Assembly: GCF_027921845.1 (NCBI RefSeq)
Contig: NZ_BSEN01000015.1
Location: forward strand, 754,636-818,635
Direction: 5' to 3'
Source of the DNA: Leifsonia poae
GTDB lineage: Bacteria > Actinomycetota > Actinomycetes > Actinomycetales > Microbacteriaceae
DNA: 64,000 nucleotides
Positions 5,752 through 18,711 of this stretch are shown piece by piece; within the stretch, counting starts at the first letter, position 1; each line of letters starts with the position of its first letter. The notes beneath the pieces were generated by a model. The model did no database searches. It worked only from the letters and a program-made list of their open reading frames with translations, and had not been told where the DNA came from. A program made the position numbers and the translations under genes.

Positions 5752-7320
5752 GTGCCGGCCGTGACCAGAGCGATCGTGCTGTGGTGTCCGGACTGGCCGG
5801 TCACCGCGACCGTGCAGACCCTCGAGCTCCCCGCCACCGCCCCGCTCGCGCTCGTCGACCGCAACCTCGTGTTCGCCTGCTCGGCGGCGGCGCGCGCCGA
5901 CGGGGTCAAGCGCGGCCTGCGCATCCGGGAAGCCCAGGCCCGCTGCACCCAGCTGCTGGTGCATCCGTACGATCCGGTGCTGGATACGCGTGCCTTCGAG
6001 CCGGTGCTGGCCGCCATCGAAGAGATCACCCCCGGCGTGCAGGCGGTGCGTCCCGGTACCTGCGTGCTGCGTGCCCGCGGGCCGGCGCGGTATTACGGAG
6101 GCGAGCAGCAGGCGGCCGCCGAGCTGCTGCGCTGCCTCGAAGGACTCGGCATCCCCGACGCGCGCATCGGCATCGCCGACGGCCCGTTCGCAGCGGAGCA
6201 GGCGGCACGCAGCACCGGCCTCGATCGCGTACGGATCATCCCGCCCGGCGCCTCCCCCGACTTCCTGGCGCCGCTGCCGGTGTCGATGCTGGGCCAGGAT
6301 GCGCTCACCCCGCTCCTGCACCGTCTCGGCATCCACCGGCTCGGTGACCTCGCCGCGCTCGATCCCACCGACGTGCGTGAGCGGTTCGGGGAACTGGGCG
6401 CACGCTGCCACACTCTGGCCAGCGGCCTCGACGGGGCGGCCGTCGTGCCCCGCACCCCGCCCAAGCAGCTCGACCGGGTCATCGAGTTCGAGCCGCCGCT
6501 CGACCGGGTCGATCAGGTGACCTTCGCCTTCCGCGGCACCGCCGAGACCTTCATCGCCGGCCTCACCAAGGCCGGACTGGTGTGCACGGCGCTCCGCATC
6601 GAGGTGACCGACGAGTCGGGCCGGGCGAGCGAACGCACGTGGCTGCATCCACGGCTCTTCTCCGCCGCCGACGTCGTCGACCGGGTGCGCTGGCAGCTGC
6701 AGGGCAGCGGGGCGGTCGACAGCGGACTCGGCTCCCCCATCATGCGCGTGCTCGTCGCCCCCGAGAGCGTCGACGACATCGGCCACCACGAAGACGGTCT
6801 GTGGGGCGGAGGCGCCGACGAGCGCATCCACCACGGGTTGTCCCGGGTGCAGAGCATGCTCGGTCACGACGCCGTGCTCACCGCGACGATCGGCGGCGGT
6901 CGAGCCCTGGCCGAGCGGCAGATCCTGGTGCCGTGGGGCGACCGCGCGGTCGGCGCGGCCCGCGCCGAGCAGCCCTGGCCGGGGAGCCTGCCGGCGCCCG
7001 CCCCGGCGACGGTGTTCGAGGTGGCGCGTCCGGTGGGCGTCTACTCCGCCGGCGGAGACCCGGTGACGGTGGATGAGCGGGGAACGGTCAGCGCGCCCAT
7101 CCACCGCTTCTCGGCCGCCGGGTCGGCCCTGGATGCCCGCGAGGCGCGCAACGCCCGCGAGGTGACGGCGTGGGCGGGTCCGTGGCCGGTGCGCGAACGC
7201 TGGTGGGACCCGGAGCACGCGCGCACGGTGCAGCGCTTCCAGGTGGTCGATGCCGACGGCACGGCTTGGCTGCTGGTGCTCGGTGACGAGGGCTGGCGGG
7301 CGGAGGCGCGGTATGACTAG
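5752..7320 (+). CDS. imuB: Mutasome adaptor ImuB (inactive Y-family polymerase)
   Basis: 522 aa, Y-family polymerase fold without catalysis. The position of the usual D-M-D-x-F motif reads CPDWPV (residues 10-15), and the S-x-D-E motif is replaced by ARGPARYYGG (about residues 106-115), so the acidic triad is incomplete, as in other ImuB proteins. QILVPWG at about 390-396 resembles the actinobacterial sliding-clamp motif. The last 60 residues (AGPWPVRERWWD, RFQVVDADGTAW) form the DUF6504-like tail. The GTG start adjoins the imuA' stop. It acts as the adaptor between the beta clamp, ImuA' and DnaE2 during SOS mutagenesis. Confidence 0.92.
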   Translation: MPAVTRAIVLWCPDWPVTATVQTLELPATAPLALVDRNLVFACSAAARADGVKRGLRIREAQARCTQLLVHPYDPVLDTRAFEPVLAAIEEITPGVQAVRPGTCVLRARGPARYYGGEQQAAAELLRCLEGLGIPDARIGIADGPFAAEQAARSTGLDRVRIIPPGASPDFLAPLPVSMLGQDALTPLLHRLGIHRLGDLAALDPTDVRERFGELGARCHTLASGLDGAAVVPRTPPKQLDRVIEFEPPLDRVDQVTFAFRGTAETFIAGLTKAGLVCTALRIEVTDESGRASERTWLHPRLFSAADVVDRVRWQLQGSGAVDSGLGSPIMRVLVAPESVDDIGHHEDGLWGGGADERIHHGLSRVQSMLGHDAVLTATIGGGRALAERQILVPWGDRAVGAARAEQPWPGSLPAPAPATVFEVARPVGVYSAGGDPVTVDERGTVSAPIHRFSAAGSALDAREARNAREVTAWAGPWPVRERWWDPEHARTVQRFQVVDADGTAWLLVLGDEGWRAEARYD

Positions 7321-7331
7321 GGAGCGCAGCG

Positions 7332-10300
7332 ATGGGCTGGAATAACCCCCCGATCCCGTGGGCCGAGTTCGAGAGGCGGCTGTCGGGCACCCGGCGAACC
7401 GGCGAACAGGTCGATGAGCGGCCGTCGTCGCGCAAGCGTGCCCCGTACATCCCGCCGCCCGTCGTGCCCGACGAGCCCGACGACGGCCACGTGCCATACG
7501 CCGAGCTGCACGCGCACTCCAACTTCAGCTTCCTCGACGGCGCCAGTTCGCCGGAGGAGCTGCTCGAGGAGGCCACCCGGCTGCGCCTGCACGGTCTCGC
7601 CATGACCGACCACGACGGGCTCTACGGGGTCGTGCACCTCGCCGAGGCCGCCGAGGCCTACGACCGGGTGAAGACGGTGTTCGGCGCCGAGCTCTCGCTC
7701 GAGCTCAGCAAGCCGCAGAACGGTGAGGCCGATCCCGAGGGCAGCCATCTGGTCGTGCTCGCCCGGCAGCAGGCCGGCTACCACGCGCTCGCCGCCGCCC
7801 TCACCGCCGCCCAGCTCGCCGGCCAGGAAAAGGGCCGACCGCTCTACGACCTGGCCGACCTCTCCGACCGTTCCGGCGGGGACTGGGCCGTGCTCACCGG
7901 CTGCCGCAAAGGCGATGTGCGACGGGCGCTGGCCTCCGACGGCGAACGGGCGGCCGAGCGCGAGGTGGCGCGCCTGGCCGAACTGTTCGGGCGCGACAGC
8001 GTGCTCGTCGAACTCATCGACCAGGGCAATCCGCGCGACACCACCGACAACGACGCACTCGCCCGCATCGCCGAGCGGCTCCGCATGCCCGTGATCGCCA
8101 CCAACAACGTGCACTACGCCTCGCCGGCCCAGCATCCGCTCGCGTCCGCGCTGGCGGCCGTGCGGTCCCGGCGCAGCCTCGACGAGCTCGACGGCTGGCT
8201 CCCCGCGGCGAACACCGCCCACCTGCGCAGCGGCCGCGAGATGGCGGCCCGGTTCGCCCGCTACCCGGGCGCGGTGGAACGCACCGTCGAGATCGCCGAC
8301 GACCTCGCGTTCCGGCTGCGCAGTGCCCGGCCCAACCTCCCCGCCCAGGAGGTGCCGGAGGGGCACACCCCGATGAGCTGGCTGCGGGAGCTCACCTGGC
8401 AGGGCGCCGCCGAGCGGTACCGGCACATCGACGAGGCCAAGCGGGAGCGCATCCAGCGGGAGCTCGACGTGATCGAGGCCAAGAACTTCCCTGGCTACTT
8501 CCTGATCGTGTACGACATCGTCCGATTCGCGCGCAGCCAGGGCATCCTCTGCCAGGGGCGCGGGTCGGCGGCCAACTCGGCGGTCTGCTATCTGCTGGGC
8601 ATCACGGCGGTCGACTCCATCAAGTACGACCTGCCGTTCGAGCGGTTCCTCTCCAGCATGCGCGAGGAGGAGCCCGACATCGACGTCGATTTCGACTCCG
8701 ACCGGCGCGAGGAGGTCATCCAGTACGTCTACCGTCGCTACGGCCGCCTCAACGCCGCCCAGGTGGCCAACGTCATCACCTACCGCCCCAAGAACGCGGT
8801 GCGCGACATGGCGAAGGCCCTCGGCTACAGCCCCGGCCAGCAAGACGGCTGGTCGAAGCAGATCGACTCCTGGGGATCGATCCAGCCGACGGCCGACCAC
8901 GACATCCCGGATGAAGTGGTCGACCTGGCACAGCAGGTGCTCAAGTTCCCGAGACACCTCGGCATCCACTCCGGCGGCATGGTGCTCACCGACCGCCCGG
9001 TCGGCGAGGTGTGCCCGATCGAGCACGCCCGCATGGAGAACCGCACCGTGCTGCAGTGGGACAAAGACGACTGCGCCTGGATGGGGCTGGTCAAGTTCGA
9101 CCTGCTCGGGCTCGGGATGCTCAGCGCGCTCGACTACTCGATGAAGACGATCGCGTCGGCGCTCGGCGAGGAGTGGACGCTCGACAGCATCCCGAAAGAA
9201 GAGCAGGGCGTGTACGACATGCTCTGCCGAGCCGACTCGATCGGCGTGTTCCAGGTGGAGAGCCGGGCGCAGATCGGCACGCTGCCGCGCCTGCAGCCGC
9301 GATCGTTCTACGACCTGGTGATCGAGATCGCGCTCATCCGGCCCGGTCCCATCCAGGGTGGCGCGGTGCATCCGTACATCCGGCGCAAGCTCGGGCAGGA
9401 GAAGGTGACCTACCTGCATCCGAAGCTGGAGCCCGTGCTGGAGCGCACGATGGGTGTCCCGCTGTTCCAGGAGCAGCTGATGCAGATGGCGGTCGCGGTC
9501 GGCGACTGCACCGCAGAAGACGCGGACCTGCTGCGCCGGGCGATGGGATCCAAGCGTGGGCAGGAGAAGATCGGCACCCTGCGCGAAAAGCTCTACACCG
9601 GCATGGCGAACAACGGGATCACCGGCGACGACGCCGACGCGATCTACGCCAAGATCGAGGCGTTCGCCAACTTCGGGTTCGCCGAGAGCCACGCCATCAG
9701 TTTCGCCCTGCTCGTCTACGTGAGCTCCTGGATGAAACTGCACTACCCCGGCGCCTTCCTCGCCGCGCTGCTGCGGGCGCAGCCGATGGGGTTCTACTCG
9801 CCGCGCACGCTGACGGCCGACGCCCGACGGCACGGTGTGGTGGTGCATCGTCCCGACATCCAGCTCTCCGAGGTGTTCCCGGTGCTCGAACCGCTCGACG
9901 AGGCGCACCACGAGCCCACCGGCGACGACCCGTGCCTGCAGACCGACCAGCCCGAGATCGGGCCCTTCCGGCGCGCGATCCCGCTCGACTACGCCCGGCA
10001 TCGCCGTGACGCCGGCCATGCCGTGCGCCTCGGGCTCGCCGGTGTCACGTCGATCGGCGAGAAGCTGGCGGCCCGCATCGTGGCCGAGCGGGCATCCGGT
10101 GGTCCGTACACCGACCTCGGCGACCTGTCCCGCCGCGTCGGGCTGAACGTCGCCCAGCTGGAGGCTCTGGCCGCCGCCGGCGCCTTCGAGAGCATGGACC
10201 TCAGCCGGCGTCAGGCCATCTGGGGCGCCGGCAATGCAGCGCAGGAGAAGCCGGAGTACCTCAGCGGCACCAGCATCACGGTGCAGCCGCCGCTGCTGCC

Positions 10301-10721
10301 GATGCTCACGCCGGCCGAGCAGCTCGCGAGCGACCTGTGGGCGACCGGCATCTCGACCGACGACCACCCGATCGGCTTCCTGCGCTCGGAGCTGGCCGGT
10401 CGCGGAGTGCTGAGCGCCGAGCAGCTGCCGTTCGCCGAATCCGGCCGGCGCGTCGAGGTCGGCGGTGTGGTCACGCACCGCCAGCGTCCGGCGACCGCCG
10501 CCGGCGTGACCTTCCTCAACCTCGAAGACGAGACCGGCCTGGTCAACGTGATCTGCCCGGTGGGGGTCTGGAACCGCTACCGACGCGTCGCCAGGGAGGC
10601 GCCGGCCATGGTCATCCGGGGCATGCTGGAGCGCTCGGAGGAGGGCGTGATCAACGTGATCGCCGATCGCCTCGAGACGCTCGGGGTCGGGATGCGCACC
10701 ACCTCCCGGGACTTCCGCTGA
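7332..10721 (+). CDS. dnaE2: Error-prone DNA polymerase DnaE2
   Basis: 1129 aa, C-family polymerase. The order is: PHP domain (AELHAHSNFSFLDGAS at about 57-72, MTDHDGLYG), polymerase core with catalytic PDIDVDF at about 448-454 and KFDLLGLG at about 588-595, HhH region (GVTSIGEKLAARI near 905), and OB fold near the end (RVEVGGVVTHRQRP). The C-terminus S-R-D-F-R is typical of DnaE2 rather than DnaE1. Third gene of the SOS operon, 11 bp after imuB with a GGAG site. It carries out translesion synthesis and induced mutagenesis with ImuA' and ImuB. Confidence 0.96.
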   Translation: MGWNNPPIPWAEFERRLSGTRRTGEQVDERPSSRKRAPYIPPPVVPDEPDDGHVPYAELHAHSNFSFLDGASSPEELLEEATRLRLHGLAMTDHDGLYGVVHLAEAAEAYDRVKTVFGAELSLELSKPQNGEADPEGSHLVVLARQQAGYHALAAALTAAQLAGQEKGRPLYDLADLSDRSGGDWAVLTGCRKGDVRRALASDGERAAEREVARLAELFGRDSVLVELIDQGNPRDTTDNDALARIAERLRMPVIATNNVHYASPAQHPLASALAAVRSRRSLDELDGWLPAANTAHLRSGREMAARFARYPGAVERTVEIADDLAFRLRSARPNLPAQEVPEGHTPMSWLRELTWQGAAERYRHIDEAKRERIQRELDVIEAKNFPGYFLIVYDIVRFARSQGILCQGRGSAANSAVCYLLGITAVDSIKYDLPFERFLSSMREEEPDIDVDFDSDRREEVIQYVYRRYGRLNAAQVANVITYRPKNAVRDMAKALGYSPGQQDGWSKQIDSWGSIQPTADHDIPDEVVDLAQQVLKFPRHLGIHSGGMVLTDRPVGEVCPIEHARMENRTVLQWDKDDCAWMGLVKFDLLGLGMLSALDYSMKTIASALGEEWTLDSIPKEEQGVYDMLCRADSIGVFQVESRAQIGTLPRLQPRSFYDLVIEIALIRPGPIQGGAVHPYIRRKLGQEKVTYLHPKLEPVLERTMGVPLFQEQLMQMAVAVGDCTAEDADLLRRAMGSKRGQEKIGTLREKLYTGMANNGITGDDADAIYAKIEAFANFGFAESHAISFALLVYVSSWMKLHYPGAFLAALLRAQPMGFYSPRTLTADARRHGVVVHRPDIQLSEVFPVLEPLDEAHHEPTGDDPCLQTDQPEIGPFRRAIPLDYARHRRDAGHAVRLGLAGVTSIGEKLAARIVAERASGGPYTDLGDLSRRVGLNVAQLEALAAAGAFESMDLSRRQAIWGAGNAAQEKPEYLSGTSITVQPPLLPMLTPAEQLASDLWATGISTDDHPIGFLRSELAGRGVLSAEQLPFAESGRRVEVGGVVTHRQRPATAAGVTFLNLEDETGLVNVICPVGVWNRYRRVAREAPAMVIRGMLERSEEGVINVIADRLETLGVGMRTTSRDFR

Positions 10722-10730
10722 CGAACGCGG

Positions 10731-11528
10731 CTACACGTTGCCCGACTTCTCCTCGTCCTCGAAGCGGAGGTGGCGCACGCTGCGGCCGTTGCGGCGCACG
10801 AGCTTCAGCGCCTCGACCCCGATCCGGATGTGCCGGTCCACGAACTCCGCGGTGACGCTGCGGTCGCTCGCCTCCGTCTTCACGCCTTCCGGCACCATCG
10901 GCTGATCGGACACCAGGAGCAGGGCACCGCACGGGATCCGGTTGGCGAAGCCGGCGGCGAAGATCGTCGCGGTCTCCATGTCGACGGCCATGCACCGAGT
11001 GCGCCGCAGGTAGGTCTTGAACGCGTCGTCATGCTCCCAGACACGGCGGTTGGTCGTGTAGACCGTGCCCGTCCAGTAGTCGAAGCCGAGATCGCGGATC
11101 GTCGTCGAGACACCGCGCTGCAGCTGGAACGCCGGCAGCGCCGGCACCTCGGGCGGCAGGTAGTCGTTCGATGTCCCCTCGCCCCGGATAGCGGCGATCG
11201 GCAGCACCAGGTCGCCGATCGCATTCTTCTTCTTGACGCCGCCGCACTTGCCGAGGAACAGCGCCGCTTTGGGCGAGATCGCGCTCAGCAGGTCCATGAC
11301 CGTCGCAGCGTTGGGGCTGCCCATCCCGAAGTTGATCATCGTGATGCCGTCCGCGGTCGCATTGGGCATCGCGCGGTCGGATCCGCGCACCTCGACACCG
11401 CTCCAACTGGCGAAGCGTTCGACGTAGTCCCCGAAGTTGGTGAGCAGGATGTGCTCGCCGAAGTCGGCCAGCGGCGTCCCGGTGTACCGGGGCAGCCAGT
11501 TGGAGACGATCTCCTGTTTCTCTTTCAT
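10731..11528 (-). CDS. amn: AMP nucleosidase (short form)
   Basis: 265 aa from the ATG at 11528, chosen because family members begin M-K-x-K-Q-E-I-V-x-N-W-L-P-R-Y-T; an ATG 15 nt upstream adds 5 residues. It has the nucleoside-phosphorylase fold: ILLTNFGDYV, GSPNAATVMDLL near residue 70, LGKCGGVKKKN, and AVDMETATIFAAGFAN near 180, where the DMET-type motif binds the ribose. It lacks the extra N-terminal domain of the E. coli enzyme, so it is the shorter type known best from Bacteroidetes. It splits AMP to adenine and ribose 5-phosphate and so lowers AMP. It is convergent with dnaE2, 9 bp apart. Confidence 0.88.
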   Translation of the reverse strand: MKEKQEIVSNWLPRYTGTPLADFGEHILLTNFGDYVERFASWSGVEVRGSDRAMPNATADGITMINFGMGSPNAATVMDLLSAISPKAALFLGKCGGVKKKNAIGDLVLPIAAIRGEGTSNDYLPPEVPALPAFQLQRGVSTTIRDLGFDYWTGTVYTTNRRVWEHDDAFKTYLRRTRCMAVDMETATIFAAGFANRIPCGALLLVSDQPMVPEGVKTEASDRSVTAEFVDRHIRIGVEALKLVRRNGRSVRHLRFEDEEKSGNV

Positions 11529-11562
11529 GATCACACCATCCACCGTCCGCGCCGGCTCGCGC

Positions 11563-12303
11563 TCAGACCACGCCGGTCGTCCCCAGCAGCGCTCCGATCA
11601 GGAAGGTCGCCGCGAGGGCGAGCGCTCCCCCGATCACGACGCGGAGGGTCGCCCTCACCCGTTGGCTTCCACCGATGAACGCGGCGACCCAGCCGGTGAC
11701 GGCCAGCGCGACGAGCACGGCGACGAACGTGACCGGGATCCGGATGTCCGCCGGTAGCAGCAGGATGGGCACGAGCGGGAGGATGCCTCCGATCGTGAAT
11801 GCGACGGCCGACGCCAGCGCGGCGTGCCACGGGCTCACCACATCGTTCTGGTCGATGCCGAGCTCGGCCGACAGGTGCGCGGAGAGCGCGTCGTGCTCGG
11901 TCAGTTCCACCGCCACCTGGCGCGCCGTCGTCCGGCTGAGGCCCTTCGCTTCATAAAGGCCCGTGAGCTCCTCGAGCTCCGCCTCCGGCATCTCCGCCAG
12001 CTCGCGACTCTCCTTCGCGATCAGCGCGTGCTCGCTGTCACGCTGGCTGCTCACGGACACGTACTCGCCGAGCGCCATTGAGATCGCACCGCCGACCAGC
12101 GCGGCGAGGCCGGCGGTGATGAGCGGGGCGAGCTGCGGCGTCGCGCTCGCGACGCCAACGGCGACGGCGGCGACCGACACGATGCCGTCGTTCGCCCCCA
12201 GCACGCCGGCGCGCAGCCAGTTCAGCCGTTTGGCCAGCCCCTCCCGGTGCGGCTCCTCGGGATGCTGCCCGGGGACCGCTGCCCTGTTCGCGCCGTCAGT
12301 CAT
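11563..12303 (-). CDS. VIT1/CCC1-family membrane transporter
   Basis: 246 aa from the ATG at 12303; the open frame runs further upstream only into the repeat region. After a short hydrophilic N-terminus, NWLRAGVLGANDGIVSVAAV (about residues 29-48) is the conserved first helix of the VIT family. AISMALGEYVSVSSQ (about 76-90) is the second signature, followed by a charged cytoplasmic segment rich in Glu (about 95-160, the metal-binding domain) and three more helices. The family moves Fe2+/Mn2+ across membranes; the direction in bacteria is unsure. It is 34 bp upstream of amn on the same strand. Confidence 0.88.
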   Translation of the reverse strand: MTDGANRAAVPGQHPEEPHREGLAKRLNWLRAGVLGANDGIVSVAAVAVGVASATPQLAPLITAGLAALVGGAISMALGEYVSVSSQRDSEHALIAKESRELAEMPEAELEELTGLYEAKGLSRTTARQVAVELTEHDALSAHLSAELGIDQNDVVSPWHAALASAVAFTIGGILPLVPILLLPADIRIPVTFVAVLVALAVTGWVAAFIGGSQRVRATLRVVIGGALALAATFLIGALLGTTGVV

Positions 12304-12366
12304 ACGCCAAGCACAGCACGTCCGCGCCGCGCGCGCCAGGCAATCGCGCGCTCGCTCGCCAGCGAC

Positions 12367-12416
12367 TTGCGGCGAATGTGCGGTCCCGCGCACCCCCGAC
12401 CGCACATTCGCCGCAA
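12367..12416. repeat. Palindromic unit A, copy 1
   Basis: Arms of 18 bp (TTGCGGCGAATGTGCGGT at 12367-12384, reverse complement at 12399-12416) are perfect and enclose a 14-nt loop. The copy at 12656-12705 has the same arms and loop length. Confidence 0.85.
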
Positions 12417-12453
12417 CTCGACCGTCGCGCAGGCGCCGGCGCCAGGCCGCCTC

Positions 12454-12514
12454 CGCGAACGGTGTCAAATGTCGCTCATTCCACGCGAATGCGCGACATT
12501 TCGCACCTCTCGCG
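12454..12514. repeat. Palindromic unit B, copy 1
   Basis: 61 bp; outer arms CGCGA/TCGCG, then GGTG/CACC, then a long imperfect stem around AAATGTCGC and GCGACATTT. Confidence 0.8.
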
Positions 12515-12546
12515 AGAAGCGACCTGCGCTGACACCATAACGCGCT

Positions 12547-12607
12547 CGCGAACGGTGCCGAACGTCGCTCATTCGGGCGAAATGCGCGACATTTCGCGCC
12601 TCTCGCG
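12547..12607. repeat. Palindromic unit B, copy 2
   Basis: 61 bp, same layout. The left inner stem reads GAACGTCGC while the right reads GCGACATTT, so this copy looks like a hybrid of the two other copies. Confidence 0.8.
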
Positions 12608-12650
12608 CGAACGCCTCACCACGGAGACTCACGCGAGCCACCACGCGGCA

Positions 12651-12710
12651 TCGAGTTGCGGCGAATGTGCGGTCACGCGCACCTCCAACCGCACATTCGC
12701 CGCAACTCGA
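12651..12710. repeat. Palindromic unit A, copy 2
   Basis: Arms of 23 bp are perfect (12651-12673 with 12688-12710), loop 14 nt. It is the longest perfect inverted repeat noted in the window. Confidence 0.88.
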
Positions 12711-12796
12711 CCACCGCGCCGGCGCCGGCACCGGCGCCGCACCGGCGCGGGTGCGCCTCTCGCGCGAAGCGAGCCGCGCTGGCACCATGACGCACT

Positions 12797-12857
12797 CGCG
12801 AACGGTGCCGAACGTCGCTCATTCCGCTCGGATGCGCGACGTTCGGCGCCTCTCGCG
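12797..12857. repeat. Palindromic unit B, copy 3
   Basis: 61 bp; here the inner stem is GAACGTCGC with GCGACGTTC. Relative to copy 1 both sides have changed and pairing is kept. Confidence 0.8.
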
Positions 12858-12881
12858 AGGGCCGCCCGCGCGCGCCGCCGC

Positions 12882-14705
12882 TCAGACGAGCGGGCGGCCG
12901 AGGCGCTTGCGCAGAAAGTCGATGCGCGACTGCAGCTGCGTCACGCTCGCCTGCGCCACCGCCGGCCCGCCGCAGACGCGGCGCAGCTCCGCGTGGATGA
13001 GGCCGTGCGGCTCGCCCGTGTTCTTCGAGTAGAGGCCGACGAGGCTGTTGAGCAGCGAGCGCTGCTCCTTGAGGTTGCGGTACAGCGGCGCCGGCGGGTG
13101 CCCCTCCGCCGAGGCCGGCCGCGACGACGTGCGGCGCGCCTGCCGCTGCTGTCGCTGGGTGAGCAGCTCGTGCACCTGATCCGGCTCCAGGATGCCCGGC
13201 AGTCCGATGAAGTCGAGCTCCTCGTCGCTTCCCGGCACCGCGTAGCTGCCGAACTCCTTGCCGTCGTACAGCACACGGTCGAAGTTCGCCTCGGAACCGA
13301 GCGCCTCGAACGCGAACTGCTCGGTCAGCGCCTCCGACGCCTTCTCGTCGCGGTTGGCCTCGGCCATCATCGCGTCTTCGGGGTTGTAGAAGTCGCCTTC
13401 GGCGAGCTCCTCCGACGCACGGTCGAGCGCGTGGTCCCGCTCGAGTTCGAGCGCATTCGCCAGCGACATCAAGGCGGGCACGTTCGGCAGGAACACCGAG
13501 GCCGTCTCACCGCGGCGACGCGCACGCACGAAGCGTCCGATCGCCTGCGCGAAGAACAGCGGCGTCGAAGCGCTGGTCGCATACACCCCGACGGCGAGCC
13601 GCGGCACGTCCACGCCCTCGGACACCATGCGCACGGCGACCATCCACCGCGACGTTCCGGCGGAGAAGTCGGCGATCCGGTCGCTCGCCTCCTTCTCGTC
13701 GGAGAGCACGACCGTGACCGGCTCCCCCGAGATCTGCTGAAGCAGGTCGGCGTAGGCGCGCGCCGCGTAGTGGTCGGTCGCGATGACCAGGCCGCCGGCA
13801 TCCGGGATGGCGTTGCGCACCTCGGTGAGGCGCCGGTCGGCCGCGTTGAGCACCGCCGGGATCCACTCCCCTCGTGGATCGAGCGCAGTGCGCCACGCCT
13901 GCGACGTGATGTCTTTGGTGTTGCCCTCGCCGAGACGGGCCTCCATCTCGTCGCCGGTCTTGGTGCGCCAGCGCATGTGCCCCGCGTAGACCATGAAGAT
14001 CACCGGACGGACGACACCGTCTTCGAGCGCGCGCCCGTAGCCGTAGTTGTAGTCGGTGAGCGAGGTGCGGATGCCGTGCTCGTCGGGCAGGTACGTCACG
14101 AACGGGATGGGCGCCGTGTCCGAACGGAACGGCGTTCCCGTCAGCGAGAGGCGGCGGGTCGCCCGCTCGAACGCGTCACGGATGCCGTCGCCCCAGCTGA
14201 GCGCGTCGCCGCCGTGGTGGACCTCGTCGAGGATGACCAGCGTGCGGTAGCTCTCGGTGATGTCTTTGTGCAGGCTCGGCCGCATCGCGACCTGCGCGTA
14301 CGTGACCGCGACACCCTTGTAGTGGCGCGCGTACCGGCCGTCGGAGTTCTTGAACTCGGGGTCGAGGTGCAGCCCGACGCGCTCCGCCGCCTCGGCCCAC
14401 TGCCGCTTGAGGTGCTCGGTGGGAGCCACAACGGTGACGCGCTCGATGATGCGGCGCGACAGCAGCTCCGTCGCGAGACGCAGCGCAAAGGTCGTCTTGC
14501 CGGCGCCGGGCGTCGCGGCCGCGAGGAAGTCGCGTGGTTCGCTCTGGAAGTAGACGTCGAGCGCCTCGGCCTGCCACGCGCGAAGCTTGTTCGCCGTTCC
14601 CCAGGCCGCACGCTCGGGGAAGGAGGGAGAGAGATGTTCCGCCGCGAAGGTACCCGCGTGCGCGCCCGGACGATCGGGTTCGGAGGGTGAGGTCGGCGTT
14701 TCCAC
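12882..14705 (-). CDS. DEAD/DEAH-box helicase, SSL2/UvsW type
   Basis: 607 aa from the GTG at 14705, the first plausible start before the conserved region; the frame is open further upstream into the SGNH promoter. Superfamily 2 motifs: LRAWQAEAL (about 41-49), Walker A AATPGAGKTT (about 63-72), Walker B/motif II ILDEVHH (about 158-164), motif III SLTGTPFRSD, and motif VI QAIGRFVRARRRG. A C-terminal extension without a known domain ends in a coiled basic stretch. The role is unknown; such single helicases are common in this family of bacteria. Divergent from the SGNH gene. Confidence 0.88.
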   Translation of the reverse strand: METPTSPSEPDRPGAHAGTFAAEHLSPSFPERAAWGTANKLRAWQAEALDVYFQSEPRDFLAAATPGAGKTTFALRLATELLSRRIIERVTVVAPTEHLKRQWAEAAERVGLHLDPEFKNSDGRYARHYKGVAVTYAQVAMRPSLHKDITESYRTLVILDEVHHGGDALSWGDGIRDAFERATRRLSLTGTPFRSDTAPIPFVTYLPDEHGIRTSLTDYNYGYGRALEDGVVRPVIFMVYAGHMRWRTKTGDEMEARLGEGNTKDITSQAWRTALDPRGEWIPAVLNAADRRLTEVRNAIPDAGGLVIATDHYAARAYADLLQQISGEPVTVVLSDEKEASDRIADFSAGTSRWMVAVRMVSEGVDVPRLAVGVYATSASTPLFFAQAIGRFVRARRRGETASVFLPNVPALMSLANALELERDHALDRASEELAEGDFYNPEDAMMAEANRDEKASEALTEQFAFEALGSEANFDRVLYDGKEFGSYAVPGSDEELDFIGLPGILEPDQVHELLTQRQQRQARRTSSRPASAEGHPPAPLYRNLKEQRSLLNSLVGLYSKNTGEPHGLIHAELRRVCGGPAVAQASVTQLQSRIDFLRKRLGRPLV

Positions 14706-14820
14706 GTGTATCGAATTTACCGCCTGCCGCCGACATCCGCCGACCCGTCGTGCGGCCCGGGCGCGCCGAACCCGGCCCCGTCGCGACGACCGCGCATCGC
14801 GAGAAGTGCAGAATGGAAGC

Positions 14821-15612
14821 ATGGCCGAAGCACAGCATCCCTGGTCCCGTTACGTCGCTCTGGGCGACTCGTTCACCGAAGGGATCGGCGATCCTGAGCC
14901 TCGGAGCCCCGGTGGCCACCGCGGCTGGGCCGACCGCGTCGCCGAGGTCCTGAGCCGGCAGACCGACGACTTCGCCTACGCCAACCTCGCCGTGCGCGGC
15001 AAGCTGATCCGCCAGATCCTCGACGAGCAGGTCGAGCCGGCGGTCGCGCTTCGCCCCGACTTGATCACGATCTCAGCCGGCGGCAACGACGTGATCCGCC
15101 CTGGCACGGACCCCGACCAGATCGCCGCGCTCTTCGACCAGGCCGTGCAACGGCTGAGCGCGGAGGGCGCGACCATCGTCGTCTTCACCGGCGTGGATGT
15201 CGGCTTCTCCCCCGTGTTCCGCGGCATCCGCGGCAAGGTCGCGATCTACAACGAGAACGTGCGTGCCATCGCCGCCCGCTACGACTGCATCGTCGCCGAC
15301 CAGTGGTCGCTCACCGAGATCCAGGACGCGCGGATGTGGGCCCCCGATCGCCTGCACCTCGCCCCGCTCGGCCACCACACCGTGGCCCGCATGGTGCTCT
15401 CCGCCCTCAACGTCGAGAACGACCTGCAGCCGCTCGAACCCGAGCCGCTGCCGGAGCGCACCTGGCGTCGGGCCCGCTCGGAAGACCTCTCGTGGGCGCG
15501 CGAGTACCTCGTCCCGTGGGTGATCCGGCGCATCCGGCACCAGTCATCGGGCGACCTGGTCAAGCCGAAGCGTCCGGATGCCGGCCCGTTCGTGATCCAC
15601 ACGGAGGACTGA
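14821..15612 (+). CDS. SGNH/GDSL-family hydrolase
   Basis: 263 aa. Block I VALGDSFTEGIGD (Ser nucleophile, about residue 16), block III SAGGND (about 83-88), and block V DRLHLAPLGH carrying the Asp and His of the triad. There is no signal peptide or membrane segment, so it acts in the cytosol. It is an esterase or lipase of unknown substrate. CAGAAT lies 6 nt before the ATG, pointing to a leaderless message; the gene stands alone. Confidence 0.88.
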   Translation: MAEAQHPWSRYVALGDSFTEGIGDPEPRSPGGHRGWADRVAEVLSRQTDDFAYANLAVRGKLIRQILDEQVEPAVALRPDLITISAGGNDVIRPGTDPDQIAALFDQAVQRLSAEGATIVVFTGVDVGFSPVFRGIRGKVAIYNENVRAIAARYDCIVADQWSLTEIQDARMWAPDRLHLAPLGHHTVARMVLSALNVENDLQPLEPEPLPERTWRRARSEDLSWAREYLVPWVIRRIRHQSSGDLVKPKRPDAGPFVIHTED

Positions 15613-15667
15613 TCGCAAGCGCCTCTCGGCCCCGAGACGGTCGGGCCCCAAGCGCCCCCAGCGCCCC

Positions 15668-16912
15668 TCAGGCCCCGAGACCGCCCGGATGCGCGAGGCG
15701 CCACCACGGCCCCGGATCCGGCAGCGCGTCCTTCAGCGCCAGCTGAGCCGTCTGCGTCTTCCCGTTCAGCGTGAAGGTCACCTGGCCGACGACGTCGCCC
15801 GCCTTGCCCGACTGCACCGTGCGGGTCTGCAGCGCCACCTGGATCGGCGTGTCCGACCAGACCAGGAACATCTTCGTCGACGTCGAGACCAGGGTCGTCT
15901 TCGCACCCCACGGCGTCGTGTACGTGCCGTACGACTGCCCGACATGCGCCGCATCCACCTCGGCGAAGCCGTTCTTCATGCTGGTCAAGAGCTTCTGCAC
16001 TCCCGCCCAGAGATCGTTGTGGGTCGGAGCCCCCAGCACGACGCCGATGACGCGCACCGTGCTCTGGCCGACGGTCACCTTCGCCGAGAACAGCAGGCAG
16101 TTGCCGGCTTCGTCGGTGTTGCCGGTCTTGATGCCGTCGATGCCGCCGACACCGAGCAGGGTGTTCGTGTTGTCCTGCTTGCCTGCGCCCGGCAGGGTGA
16201 CGTTCTTCTGCGACACGATCGCCGAGAGCACCGGGTCGGCGAGCACGAGCTTGCCGATGCCGATCAGGTCCTTCGTCGTGCTGACGCTGCCGGGGGTCAG
16301 GCCGTCGGGGCTGTCCAGGTGCGTGCCGGTGAACTTCTTCGCCTTCAGCCACGAGTTGGCCGCTGACACGAAGGAGCCGGTCGAGCCGTACGCCCAGTTC
16401 GCCAGGGAGATCGCGTAGTTGTTGGCCGACGGCAGCAGCATCGCTTCCAGCGCCTGCCGCTCGGTCATCCTCGTCCCGGCCACCACCGGGGCCCACGAGC
16501 CGCCCTCAGCGATCACCTGATTCCAGATGTCGACGTCCTTCTGCGTGAAGGAGATCGTCGGGCCGTCTTTACCCGACGCGATCGGCTTCTTGTCCAGGAT
16601 CACGAGCGCGGTGATGGTCTTGGTCACGCTGGCGATCGGAACGCTCGCCGATGATCCGTGGAGCTCGCTCGCCCCCGGATAGTCCGGCGCGGTGATCGCG
16701 CTCGAGCCCCAGGTCGGCCAGACCAGATCGGCGGCCGGCTGCGCGATGCTCGCCTGATGCTGGGTGACGGCCGCGGTCGCCGGCATGGGTGCGAAGAGCG
16801 ACCCCGTGATGTACAGGATGCTGACCAGCACGATCCCGAGGAATCCGAAGACGACGATGCGACGACGACGGTAGACCTGTTGTCGGGTGTAACGGCGGGG
16901 CTGATCGTGCAC
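15668..16912 (-). CDS. D-alanyl-D-alanine carboxypeptidase (PBP5-like)
   Basis: 414 aa. An N-terminal membrane anchor (about residues 19-41, after an Arg-rich start) is followed by a serine-type penicillin-binding domain: S-V-T-K at 95-98, S-A-N at 162-164, and K-T-G at 262-264. The C-terminal 110 residues are beta-rich, like the second domain of PBP5-type enzymes. It trims the terminal D-Ala from peptidoglycan side chains outside the membrane. The GTG start has TAGAAT 6 nt upstream and no ribosome site, a clear leaderless candidate. Confidence 0.9.
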   Translation of the reverse strand: MHDQPRRYTRQQVYRRRRIVVFGFLGIVLVSILYITGSLFAPMPATAAVTQHQASIAQPAADLVWPTWGSSAITAPDYPGASELHGSSASVPIASVTKTITALVILDKKPIASGKDGPTISFTQKDVDIWNQVIAEGGSWAPVVAGTRMTERQALEAMLLPSANNYAISLANWAYGSTGSFVSAANSWLKAKKFTGTHLDSPDGLTPGSVSTTKDLIGIGKLVLADPVLSAIVSQKNVTLPGAGKQDNTNTLLGVGGIDGIKTGNTDEAGNCLLFSAKVTVGQSTVRVIGVVLGAPTHNDLWAGVQKLLTSMKNGFAEVDAAHVGQSYGTYTTPWGAKTTLVSTSTKMFLVWSDTPIQVALQTRTVQSGKAGDVVGQVTFTLNGKTQTAQLALKDALPDPGPWWRLAHPGGLGA

Positions 16913-16931
16913 CCGGAGATTCTACGGTGGG

Positions 16932-17756
16932 CTAGTCAGCAGATCCCTGAGAACGCGCCCGCAACGCCCAGAGTGCCACGGCGCTCGCGGCGGCGACGTT
17001 GAGGGAGTCGACTCCGTGCAGCATCGGGATGGTCACCACCGTGTCTGCGGCGGCGAGGGCCCGCCTGCTCAACCCGTCGCCCTCCGACCCGAGCACCATC
17101 GCCACCCGCTCCGGTGGATCGGCGGCGTACTCGTCCAGTCCGACCGCGTCGTCGGAGAGCGCGAGGGCCGCGATCTCGAACCCCGCGTTGTGCAGGATCG
17201 GCGCTGCCTCGTTCCACTCCGGGATGCGCGTCCACGGCACCTGCAGCACCGTCCCCATGCTCACGCGCACGCTGCGCCGGTAGAGCGGATCGGCGCAGCG
17301 CGGGCTGACCAGCACGGCATCGGCGCCAAGCCCGGCCACCGCTCGGAAGATCGCCCCGACATTGGTGTGATCGACGATGTCTTCGAGCACGACGACGCGG
17401 CGGGCATCCGCGAGGAGGTCGGCGAGCGGCGGAAGCTCGGGCCGGTGCATCGCCGCGAGCGCGCCGCGGTGCAGGTGGTAGCCGGTCAGCTCCTCGAGCA
17501 CGCCGCTGTCGCCGACGTACACGGGAACGTCCGGGTACGCGCCGAGCAGCGGTTCGATGTCGGGGAGCCATTGCTCCTGCAGCAGCACCGAGCGCGGCCG
17601 ATGTCCCGCGGCCAGTGCCCGCGTGATCACCTTCGACGACTCGGCGATGTAGAGGCCGCCCGCCGGCTCGCTGACGCGCCGCAGGGCGACGTCGGTGAGC
17701 CGTGAGTAGTCGGCGAGGCCCTCGTCGCCGAGGTCGGTGATGCGGTGGATGCGCAC
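16932..17756 (-). CDS. SpoU/TrmH-family RNA 2'-O-methyltransferase
   Basis: 274 aa from GTG 17756. The N-terminal substrate domain (about 1-115) includes GGLYIAESSKVI. The C-terminal SPOUT knot has motif 1 NVGAIFRAVAGLGADAVL, motif 2 MVLGSEGDGLS and motif 3 IPMLHGVDSLNVAAASAV. It transfers a methyl group from S-adenosylmethionine to a ribose in rRNA or tRNA; the target base is unknown. Alternative starts up to 57 nt upstream exist in a region that also holds the sirtuin promoter. Confidence 0.88.
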   Translation of the reverse strand: MRIHRITDLGDEGLADYSRLTDVALRRVSEPAGGLYIAESSKVITRALAAGHRPRSVLLQEQWLPDIEPLLGAYPDVPVYVGDSGVLEELTGYHLHRGALAAMHRPELPPLADLLADARRVVVLEDIVDHTNVGAIFRAVAGLGADAVLVSPRCADPLYRRSVRVSMGTVLQVPWTRIPEWNEAAPILHNAGFEIAALALSDDAVGLDEYAADPPERVAMVLGSEGDGLSRRALAAADTVVTIPMLHGVDSLNVAAASAVALWALRARSQGSAD

Positions 17757-17865
17757 AGGAGGCCGCCTTTCGTGGTCGGGTGCAGCATCCAGATTGCCAG
17801 TAGCCGGAAACAATTCGGAAAACTCCGGTGTTTAGACTTAGGGCAGGCTGTATCAGGAGGTGTCG

Positions 17866-18711
17866 ATGGCTGCGTTCACGACCGAGGTCCCGCCCGAGCT
17901 GGCGAGCGATCTCGACCGCGCTGTCGACATCCTGTCGGGGCGGCGGTTCGCAATGCTCACCGGCGCGGGCGTGAGCACCGATTCGGGCATCCCGGATTAT
18001 CGGGGCGAGGGCGCGCCCAAGCGCACTCCGATGACCTTCCAGCAGTTCCTCGCCGACGAGGAGTACGCCAAGCGGTACTGGGCCGGCAGCCATCTCGGCT
18101 ACCGGCGATTCGCCGCCGCCTCGCCGAACGCGGGCCACCGGGCGATCGCCGACCTGGAGCTCTCCGGCGCTGCGAACGGCGTCATCACCCAGAACGTCGA
18201 CGGGCTGCACAAGCAGGCCGGCTCGCGCAAGGTCGTGGACCTGCACGGGGCCATGGACCGCGTGCTCTGCCTCACCTGCGGTCAGATGTTCGCCCGTGAG
18301 AGCGTCTCCGCGCGCATCGACGACGCCAACCCGTGGCTCGACACCGAGGGCGCCGTGGAGATCGCGCCCGACGGCGACGCGATCGTCACCGACATCGACT
18401 CGTTCGTGGTTCCGACCTGCACGGTGTGCGGCGGCCGTCTCAAGCCCGACGTCGTCTTCTTCGGCGAGTTCATCCCCGCCGAGAAGTACCGCGAGGCGAG
18501 CGCCCTGGTGCGTTCGTCGGACGCGCTCGTGATCGCCGGCTCGTCCCTGGTGGTCAACTCCGGCATCCGGCTGCTCGAAGAGGCACGGCGCAAGCGCCTG
18601 CCCATCGTCATCGTCAACAGGGGCGTGACCAAGGGCGACACCCGGGCGACCGTTAAGCTGGACGCCGGGACCACGGAGACTCTGGTCGAACTGGCCAGGC
18701 GCCTCGCCTGA
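17866..18711 (+). CDS. Sir2-family NAD-dependent deacylase
   Basis: 281 aa from the ATG at 17866, 5 nt after AGGAGG; a GTG 6 nt earlier overlaps the ribosome site. NAD-binding GAGVSTDSGIPDYRG at 33-47, Q-N-V-D-G-L-H at 109-115, catalytic His in D-L-H-G (about 127), and zinc-binding C-L-T-C (135-138) with C-T-V-C (185-188). It removes acyl groups from protein lysines using NAD. A TAGACT -10 element at 17835-17840 fits a short 5' leader. Followed by the histidine phosphatase after 31 bp, probably one operon. Confidence 0.92.
   Translation: MAAFTTEVPPELASDLDRAVDILSGRRFAMLTGAGVSTDSGIPDYRGEGAPKRTPMTFQQFLADEEYAKRYWAGSHLGYRRFAAASPNAGHRAIADLELSGAANGVITQNVDGLHKQAGSRKVVDLHGAMDRVLCLTCGQMFARESVSARIDDANPWLDTEGAVEIAPDGDAIVTDIDSFVVPTCTVCGGRLKPDVVFFGEFIPAEKYREASALVRSSDALVIAGSSLVVNSGIRLLEEARRKRLPIVIVNRGVTKGDTRATVKLDAGTTETLVELARRLA

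Follow-up and report, generated by a model that had tools for sequence, protein, structure and literature searches.

A BIME-like array of two palindrome families in Leifsonia poae and its dispersed relatives at gene ends

Introduction

Among described systems, those closest to the locus reported here are the REP, BIME and REPIN elements. REPINs, which are REP doublets that form hairpins, are described from Pseudomonas fluorescens SBW25. According to the parts of that account used here, their conserved ends are inverted, the length of the middle and the formation of a hairpin both matter, and compensatory changes are common (PMC3116915). BIMEs are stated, in the part of the source drawn on, to bind gyrase (PMC2817692). 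REPINs and BIMEs are explained by RAYT transposases, and here a similar architecture occurs in an actinobacterial genus in whose 28 searched genomes no Y1 enzyme was found. The term "actinobacteria" occurs nowhere in the text of PMC2817692 or PMC3733652, and among the open-access papers that a search listed, titles and the openings of abstracts gave no description of such repeats in Leifsonia or its family.

The array lies in the window, by which we mean the whole stretch of 64,000 nucleotides of Leifsonia poae that was analysed. We lean towards reading it as a BIME-like cluster of two families of short palindromes of fixed geometry, whose dispersed members would act as boundaries at gene ends and would have spread without a Y1 transposase.

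Results

Anatomy of the array

The array occupies window positions 12362-12857, with the unit order A-B-B-A-half B-B. Its parts and the two genes on either side are as follows.

11563..12303, minus strand: VIT-family (PF01988) gene, with its start towards the array at 58 bp from A1
12362..12421, plus strand: A unit 1 (A1); core 56 bp (19+18+19); MFE -41.0, z -8.5
12454..12514, plus strand: B unit 1 (B1), 61 bp; core 55 bp (19+17+19) at 12457-12511; RNA MFE -34.2 kcal/mol, z -7.3
12515..12546, plus strand: linker copy 1, 32 bp
12547..12607, plus strand: B unit 2 (B2), a chimera; RNA MFE -27.6 kcal/mol, z -2.0
12651..12710, plus strand: A unit 2 (A2); perfect 23-bp arms and a 14-nt loop; MFE -44.3, z -9.9
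12753..12764, plus strand: solo right end of a B unit, GCGCCTCTCGCG
12765..12796, plus strand: linker copy 2, 32 bp
12797..12857, plus strand: B unit 3 (B3), 61 bp; RNA MFE -44.7 kcal/mol, z -7.7
12882..14822, minus strand: DEAD/ResIII-type helicase gene, with a stop codon 24 bp away from B3, the array lying behind the 3' end of the gene

Most of what the earlier note had described from the letters of this locus was borne out by the coordinates. Each of the three B units is 61 bp long; the inner stem has changed on both sides between B1 (AAATGTCGC/GCGACATTT) and B3 (GAACGTCGC/GCGACGTTC), with B2 a hybrid of the two; a 32-bp linker precedes both B2 and B3 (12515-12546 and 12765-12796, identical at 26 of 32 positions); and a B end that lacks its left half (12753-12764) stands before the second linker. 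The A units had been given perfect arms of 18-23 bp and a 14-nt loop; A2 has perfect 23-bp arms and such a loop, and in A1 a single C.C mismatch lies close to the foot.

The left arm of B2 is B3-like and its right arm B1-like, and its fold is weaker than those of its neighbours, so that B2 is best read as a recombinant rather than as an intermediate of compensatory change. The module 12503-12607 is repeated at 12753-12857 with 85% identity, and arrays as well as chimeras like B2 may arise by recombination between copies. The A core pattern was matched five times in the window against a shuffle mean of 0.39, four of the matches being A arms and the fifth a three-mismatch match at 9372. The B core pattern was also matched five times, against 0.00 in 100 shuffles, the matches representing three units, two of them on both strands. 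Rfam gave no match at gathering score in the window. A hairpin with 19-bp arms at 1922-1972 is unrelated to A and B.

Neighbouring genes and the slot in relatives

The array sits in a tandem gap, behind the helicase stop codon and also before the start of the VIT gene. No transposase is nearby, as had been claimed, among the nine proteins scanned (window 5755-18708). An impB/mucB-type polymerase gene, followed by a DNA polymerase III alpha gene, lies at 5752-10721; we take this pair to be like an imuB-dnaE2 mutagenesis cassette.

The slot was compared in 27 other Leifsonia genomes and was readable in 12, being unreadable in the other 15. The helicase and VIT genes lie close together with a short gap in ten (G008, G009, G010, G015, G018, G019, G021, G022, G023 and G024) and with a longer gap in two (G014 and G025). 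None of these 12 has a hairpin of score 11 or more in the gap, and the array is thus lineage-specific among the genomes that could be checked. In relatives the VIT gene is preceded by a conserved motif, AAGGTTCGGCGACCCTAA with variants (L228, L235, L236, L240-L242 and L244), which is similar to the IdeR/DtxR iron box. Inspection of the own genome by eye did not reveal the motif at window positions 12304-12360, where the array sits.

Dispersal in the genome, the genus and the family

Covariance models were made from 17 B and 10 A copies. A search of the own genome at E<=0.01 found at least 24 B-type and at least 15 A-type places, the weakest of which could be chance matches, so that the units are not peculiar to the window. 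Copies were also found at many places by DNA search, and most of them are single. A second array, with the order B-A-B-A-B, lies at G000:C1:309946-310440. The total of at least 39 is below the more than 100 copies that the consulted part of PMC2817692 calls usual for REPs. In the own assembly, two contigs stop some 60 bp past A units (G000:C1:675588-675720 and G000:C10:131715-131774), as if larger arrays had broken the assembly.

Within the genus, R1 was matched in 25 and R2 in 22 of the 28 Leifsonia genomes at E<=0.001, the own genome included, mostly by elements of the same shape with different sequences; L103-L105, which match R2 weakly, are unlike members in appearance. In the small-genome Leifsonia G003 (2.7 Mb) and G027 (2.6 Mb) R1 was not matched, and R2 either not at all or twice and weakly; this near-lack suggests that reduced genomes may lack the elements. 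Across 199 genomes of the family, under stricter filters, R1 was found in at least eight genomes (the own and one other Leifsonia included) and in 6 of 85 genera, a lower bound because the Leifsonia genomes G014 and G022, matched in the genus search, were missed there. In one member of another genus of the family (G133, 2.5-Mb genome), a GAGCGGTGCGAAACGTG-type element that is equal in length stands in arrays of three copies (L120, L127 and L128). The A/C core pattern occurs in 13 stretches of named genomes; two Leifsonia supply 12 of these and a Mycobacterium MAG the last (L107).

Arrays of two further families, C and D, are found in relatives (L184, L188 and L168; L176 has C only). Those at L188 and L184 (G019) and at L168 (G021) adjoin FMN-dependent dehydrogenase-like paralogues, and in G019 the dehydrogenase-like gene and the C/D array look as if they had been duplicated as one. 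DNA similarity searches of phages and plasmids gave no match for the whole array or for a family C copy, and a search of phages alone gave none for a copy of family F.

The Y1 HUH transposase family (PF01797) was matched in none of the 28 Leifsonia genomes at E<=0.001, the own included, and in 5 of 14 control genomes. A REP system with a recognisable extant RAYT is ruled out on this ground. In a scan of the feet of 57 C/D hairpins, no single tag among GTAG, CGTC and their complements was present on a given side in more than 3 hairpins. As the enzyme that defines REPs was not found in these genomes and the C/D feet lack the tags, the elements are REPIN/BIME-like in form and not members of a RAYT-REP system.

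Geometry of the elements

B, C and D elements are 55 bp long, with two 19-bp arms around 17 bp, and A elements are 56 bp long with a middle of 18. Counted in copies with both exact 10-mer cores, the spacing between core arms is 25 in 60 of 60 B/C copies and in 20 of 21 D copies, 42 in 14 of 15 copies of family F, and 31 in seven and 32 in two of nine copies of family E. Outside the arms, conservation stops at the stem ends. C and D arms hold a small palindrome of their own (ATTCG-TGC-CGAAT or ATTTG-CGC-CAAAT), which the arms of A and B lack. A mismatch, C.C or G.G, stands at pair 5-56 in 8 of 10 A copies, and in B copies pair 7-55 fails to match in 10 of 17; such a recurrent mismatched pair gives the element a direction. 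At L157:9944-10002 an element stands at the very end of a predicted coding region, where its right arm seems to provide the first base of the stop codon.

Six families at gene ends

Eighty stretches from two relatives (G019 and G021), 1.56 Mb in all, were scanned for strong hairpins. Six families account for 125 of the 131 found (40 C, 26 D, 25 F, 19 E, 8 G and 7 H); two of the remainder form one orthologous pair and four are singletons. Markov-resampled G021 sequence (391 kb) contained no hairpin of score 15 or more. Among gaps of at least 60 bp, a strong hairpin is held by 66 of 127 convergent, 42 of 393 tandem and 7 of 213 divergent gaps, shares that are no genome-wide estimate since the stretches were mostly chosen around C/D matches and some in G019 around F. 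Convergent gaps of the first 40 stretches hold more hairpins than their portion of the intergenic bases would give (p = 6e-12, or 6e-7 for the C/D places alone). The hairpins of tandem gaps lie close to the upstream gene: the median distance of 25 of them is 24 nt behind the stop codon and 113 nt before the next start.

The single loci of relatives point the same way. Of 62 such loci, which include the weak L103-L105 and some that are orthologous to each other, 59 were scored, with 29 convergent, 28 tandem, none divergent, one inside a gene and one at an edge. In the own genome 30 of 39 units were scored: 17 in tandem gaps, 10 of which belong to the two arrays, 8 in convergent gaps, 2 in divergent gaps and 3 at a contig edge. 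None of 158 hairpin feet has five or more T in the next 10 nt, where the background is 2.1%, and this absence of U tracts counts against ordinary intrinsic termination.

Paired changes between and within families

The earlier note had taken the paired changes of the three local B units as a sign of selection for hairpin shape, and with more copies aligned these changes persist between families and within B, and are not in excess within C or D. In a set of 110 distinct rows, 24 of 25 stem pairs have changed on both sides, and the covariation is 0.508 against 0.158 in shuffles, none of 60 shuffles scoring as high. The set holds all 17 B, 36 C and 28 D copies together with 31 loci of relatives with 61-bp matches, whose percentage paired leans upward because they were drawn by a model that rewards pairing; L073, L081-L083, L124 and L134 (other match lengths) and L075 (off-centre) were left out. 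In a hand-picked set of 49 rows (A3), again 24 of 25 pairs have changed on both sides, with covariation of 0.561 against 0.173 shuffled and 0.171 for the best slid alignment. These rows comprise 16 of 36 C, 10 of 28 D and 9 of 17 B copies and 14 others; the eight B copies dropped include less perfect ones, and A, being one base longer, is out.

Within single families the picture differs. Covariation is 0.072 within C against 0.067 shuffled and 0.052 within D against 0.061, which is no excess in either, and 0.161 within B against 0.110; in a mixed set of relatives it is 0.714 against 0.195. The own-genome B copies give a moderate signal, with a score reached in 1 of 500 shuffles, and the own-genome A copies a weak one, with a score reached in 20 of 500 and a count of both-sided pairs reached in 303 of 500. 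When 23 of 29 orthologous hairpins of several families that were comparable between G019 and G021 were examined, 33 stem changes were one-sided and one was both-sided, so that recent evolution in place has not been compensatory. Paired change thus sets one palindromic family apart from another, and inside C or D no such process can be seen. It is weaker evidence for shape selection than it looks, because the local B trio includes a recombinant and because C and D show no excess.

Mispairs of the G.U and A.C kinds are about equally frequent (26 and 24; in the transcript sense in tandem gaps 6 and 9, a weak comparison). The constant spacing around a drifting middle, the lack of paired change within C and D and this near-equality suggest weakly that DNA is recognised rather than one RNA strand. 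The selection had been likened to that on REP/BIME elements or on a structured RNA. The REP/BIME-like organisation stands, as does a constraint on the arms; the elements are not REPs as these are defined, and RNA is not singled out.

Shared slots and the exchange of families

C and D elements present in both G019 and G021 were compared at 15 sites in one direction and 17 in the other. The arms differ at 12 of 570 (2.1%) and 11 of 646 (1.7%) positions, the inner 17 bp at 24 of 255 (9.4%) and 25 of 289 (8.7%) with no gapped position, and the 30-bp flanks at 98 of 841 (11.7%) and 117 of 932 (12.6%) with 59 and 88 gapped positions. Arms and flanks thus differ in divergence roughly sixfold, with an arm figure that is biased low, both because the elements were chosen as intact in one genome, which could halve the arm divergence, and because a site had to match at 24 or more of the 38 arm positions to be counted, a threshold that removed none of the 15 located in the first direction and 5 of the 22 located in the second.

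Forty-two of 58 G021 hairpins have their slot in the fetched G019 DNA. Thirty-eight of these slots hold the same hairpin (meaning that an arm was found in the slot, or up to 120 bp to either side, at a match of 80% or better), three hold another family and one (L295) is empty. The exchanged slots are L172 (F/E), L285 (F/E) and L297 (E/H); the E hairpin of L172, whose 23-base loop exceeds the detector's limit of 22, was missed by the detector and is counted as an exchange. At L285 the first bases of F remain beside E in G019, and F therefore came first there. From G019 to G021, 67 hairpins gave 39 slots with the same hairpin, three with another, one without a hairpin and 24 without a slot in the fetched DNA. 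Two of the three are array copies (L184 and L188), and the remaining one is the exchange at L297, already counted above in the opposite direction; the slot without a hairpin is that of the C copy L185:9829, which is absent from G021.

One convergent slot followed in 24 genomes holds F, E, K, M, N, P-type and other hairpins, and a tree needs 12 label changes to account for them. The hairpin was found by the detector in 18 genomes, by eye in G019, from partly masked sequence in the own genome and, in G027, as a decayed copy recognised by its likeness to G003; G002, G017 and G026 have no hairpin there, and G006, G007, G016 and G020, in which the flanks are not adjacent, were left out. E is paired with F in G019/G021 (support 0.41) and again in G015/G024 (support 1.00), a pattern that suggests two separate exchanges and gives no direction. 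Older examples are L069/L138/L082, with C, D and C at one slot, and L073/L074. The neighbours of the perfect B copy at G000:C1:318002 are not together in other genomes.

Discussion

Position, conserved arms and exchange carry more of the case for a BIME-like cluster of dispersed boundary elements than paired change does. Several results speak against it: the absence of U tracts, the lack of covariation within C and D, the mostly one-sided stem changes between G019 and G021, the failure to find a mobilising enzyme in the searches made or, by eye, a target-site duplication at two empty sites, and the place of the array itself in a tandem gap that also precedes a gene start. The elements may serve as two-way boundaries at gene ends, where transcripts would be ended or capped, or convergent transcription and its supercoils absorbed, a role that would explain why slots keep a hairpin while its family changes. 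That retention, together with the scarcity of hairpins in divergent gaps, suggests that the hairpin or a factor bound to it is useful there. New copies could spread by a process that reads the two-arm geometry without a Y1 transposase, much as RAYTs are thought to read REPINs. A broader proposition, which we put forward tentatively and as something well short of probable, is that Leifsonia and some relatives possess a genome-wide, exchangeable system of gene-end boundaries, in which two-arm DNA sites would be read by a putative trans-acting factor and would insulate convergent genes, and in which families would compete for slots and replace each other without a Y1 transposase.

It is also possible, if rather unlikely, that these are DNA-level sites at gene ends of a putative dimeric protein, or gyrase sites, and that hairpins and RNA folding are by-products. 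This reading overlaps with the proposed boundary role, and the two are not exclusive. It would account for arms that are conserved in sequence beyond what pairing alone needs, for the constant spacing around a variable middle, and for the lack both of covariation inside C and D and of tolerance for G.U. The small palindromes within C and D arms fit it too, as does the binding of gyrase by BIMEs in the cited part of PMC2817692. The arms of A and B, however, are not themselves palindromic, and arm-to-arm complementarity is found in every family, which two separate sites need only if the same protein reads both. We know of no protein for such sites.

The array could instead consist of classical REP/BIME elements moved by a RAYT, that is a Y1 HUH transposase, encoded away from the window, which we regard as improbable. 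Dispersed palindromes, mosaic arrays and location at gene ends fit the published descriptions, as far as the parts used here go (PMC3733652, PMC2817692 and PMC3116915), and the enzyme may have disappeared once the elements had spread, or may have diverged too far for the model. The results for PF01797 (0 of 28 genomes) and for the tags (at most 3 of 57 C/D hairpins) speak against it.

Little credence is likewise due to the view that each hairpin is an ordinary intrinsic terminator and that the similarity of copies is incidental. Terminators of the I-shaped kind are an actinobacterial type. Position at gene ends would be expected of terminators, as would slots that keep a hairpin while its sequence changes, and one hairpin in G018 (L199) has an A-run/T-run core like that of a bidirectional terminator. 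However, terminators have no need of constant arm spacing, nearly all strong hairpins (125 of 131) belong to six repeated families, and U tracts are lacking.

Miniature inverted-repeat elements of a conventional DDE transposon would explain why conservation ends at the stem ends, why empty sites exist and why the array is absent from the relatives that could be checked, but by eye no target-site duplication was seen at two empty sites, and no transposase stood among the 25 listed of 111 Pfam families for 66 neighbour proteins in G021, so that such an origin is quite improbable. That matching arms came about without selection for shape, through template switching that copied one arm onto the other at the birth of a family, is very improbable: every family is palindromic and C and D copies show no paired change beyond shuffles, as it would predict, yet 33 one-sided changes against one both-sided change between G019 and G021 oppose frequent correction, and gene-end position and conserved arms would be left unexplained.

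With an architecture much like that of REPINs and BIMEs and no Y1 enzyme found in the genus, the elements allow the role of palindromes at gene ends to be considered apart from their spread. What is distinctive here is the strong bias to convergent gene ends together with direct cases of family replacement at one slot, and these natural replacements in near-identical neighbourhoods offer a testbed for models of termination, supercoils and roadblocks.

Compared with known systems, the elements resemble intrinsic or I-shaped terminators in placing a stable hairpin directly past stop codons, and differ from them in forming repeated families of fixed geometry and in having no U tract. With the CGTC-tagged REPs, as described in the part of PMC3733652 consulted, they share palindrome families without a dedicated transposase, which there lie mostly between convergent or unidirectional genes, whereas C and D feet lack the CGTC tag. 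Unlike REPINs, as far as the cited parts of PMC3116915 describe them, they occur without a found RAYT in the 28 Leifsonia genomes, show no paired change within C or D, are strongly biased to convergent gene ends and occupy slots that exchange families. Like REPINs in the same account, they have inverted conserved arms and a less conserved middle of fixed length, and occur mostly as singles with some tandem clusters; the REPIN trait of arms that are small palindromes is true of C and D and not of A and B. Against the BIMEs and REPs with RAYTs in the consulted part of PMC2817692, finally, the differences are that no Y1 transposase was found in Leifsonia and no GTAG tag on C or D, while the likeness lies in mosaic arrays of two palindrome types, recurring linkers and species-specific families.
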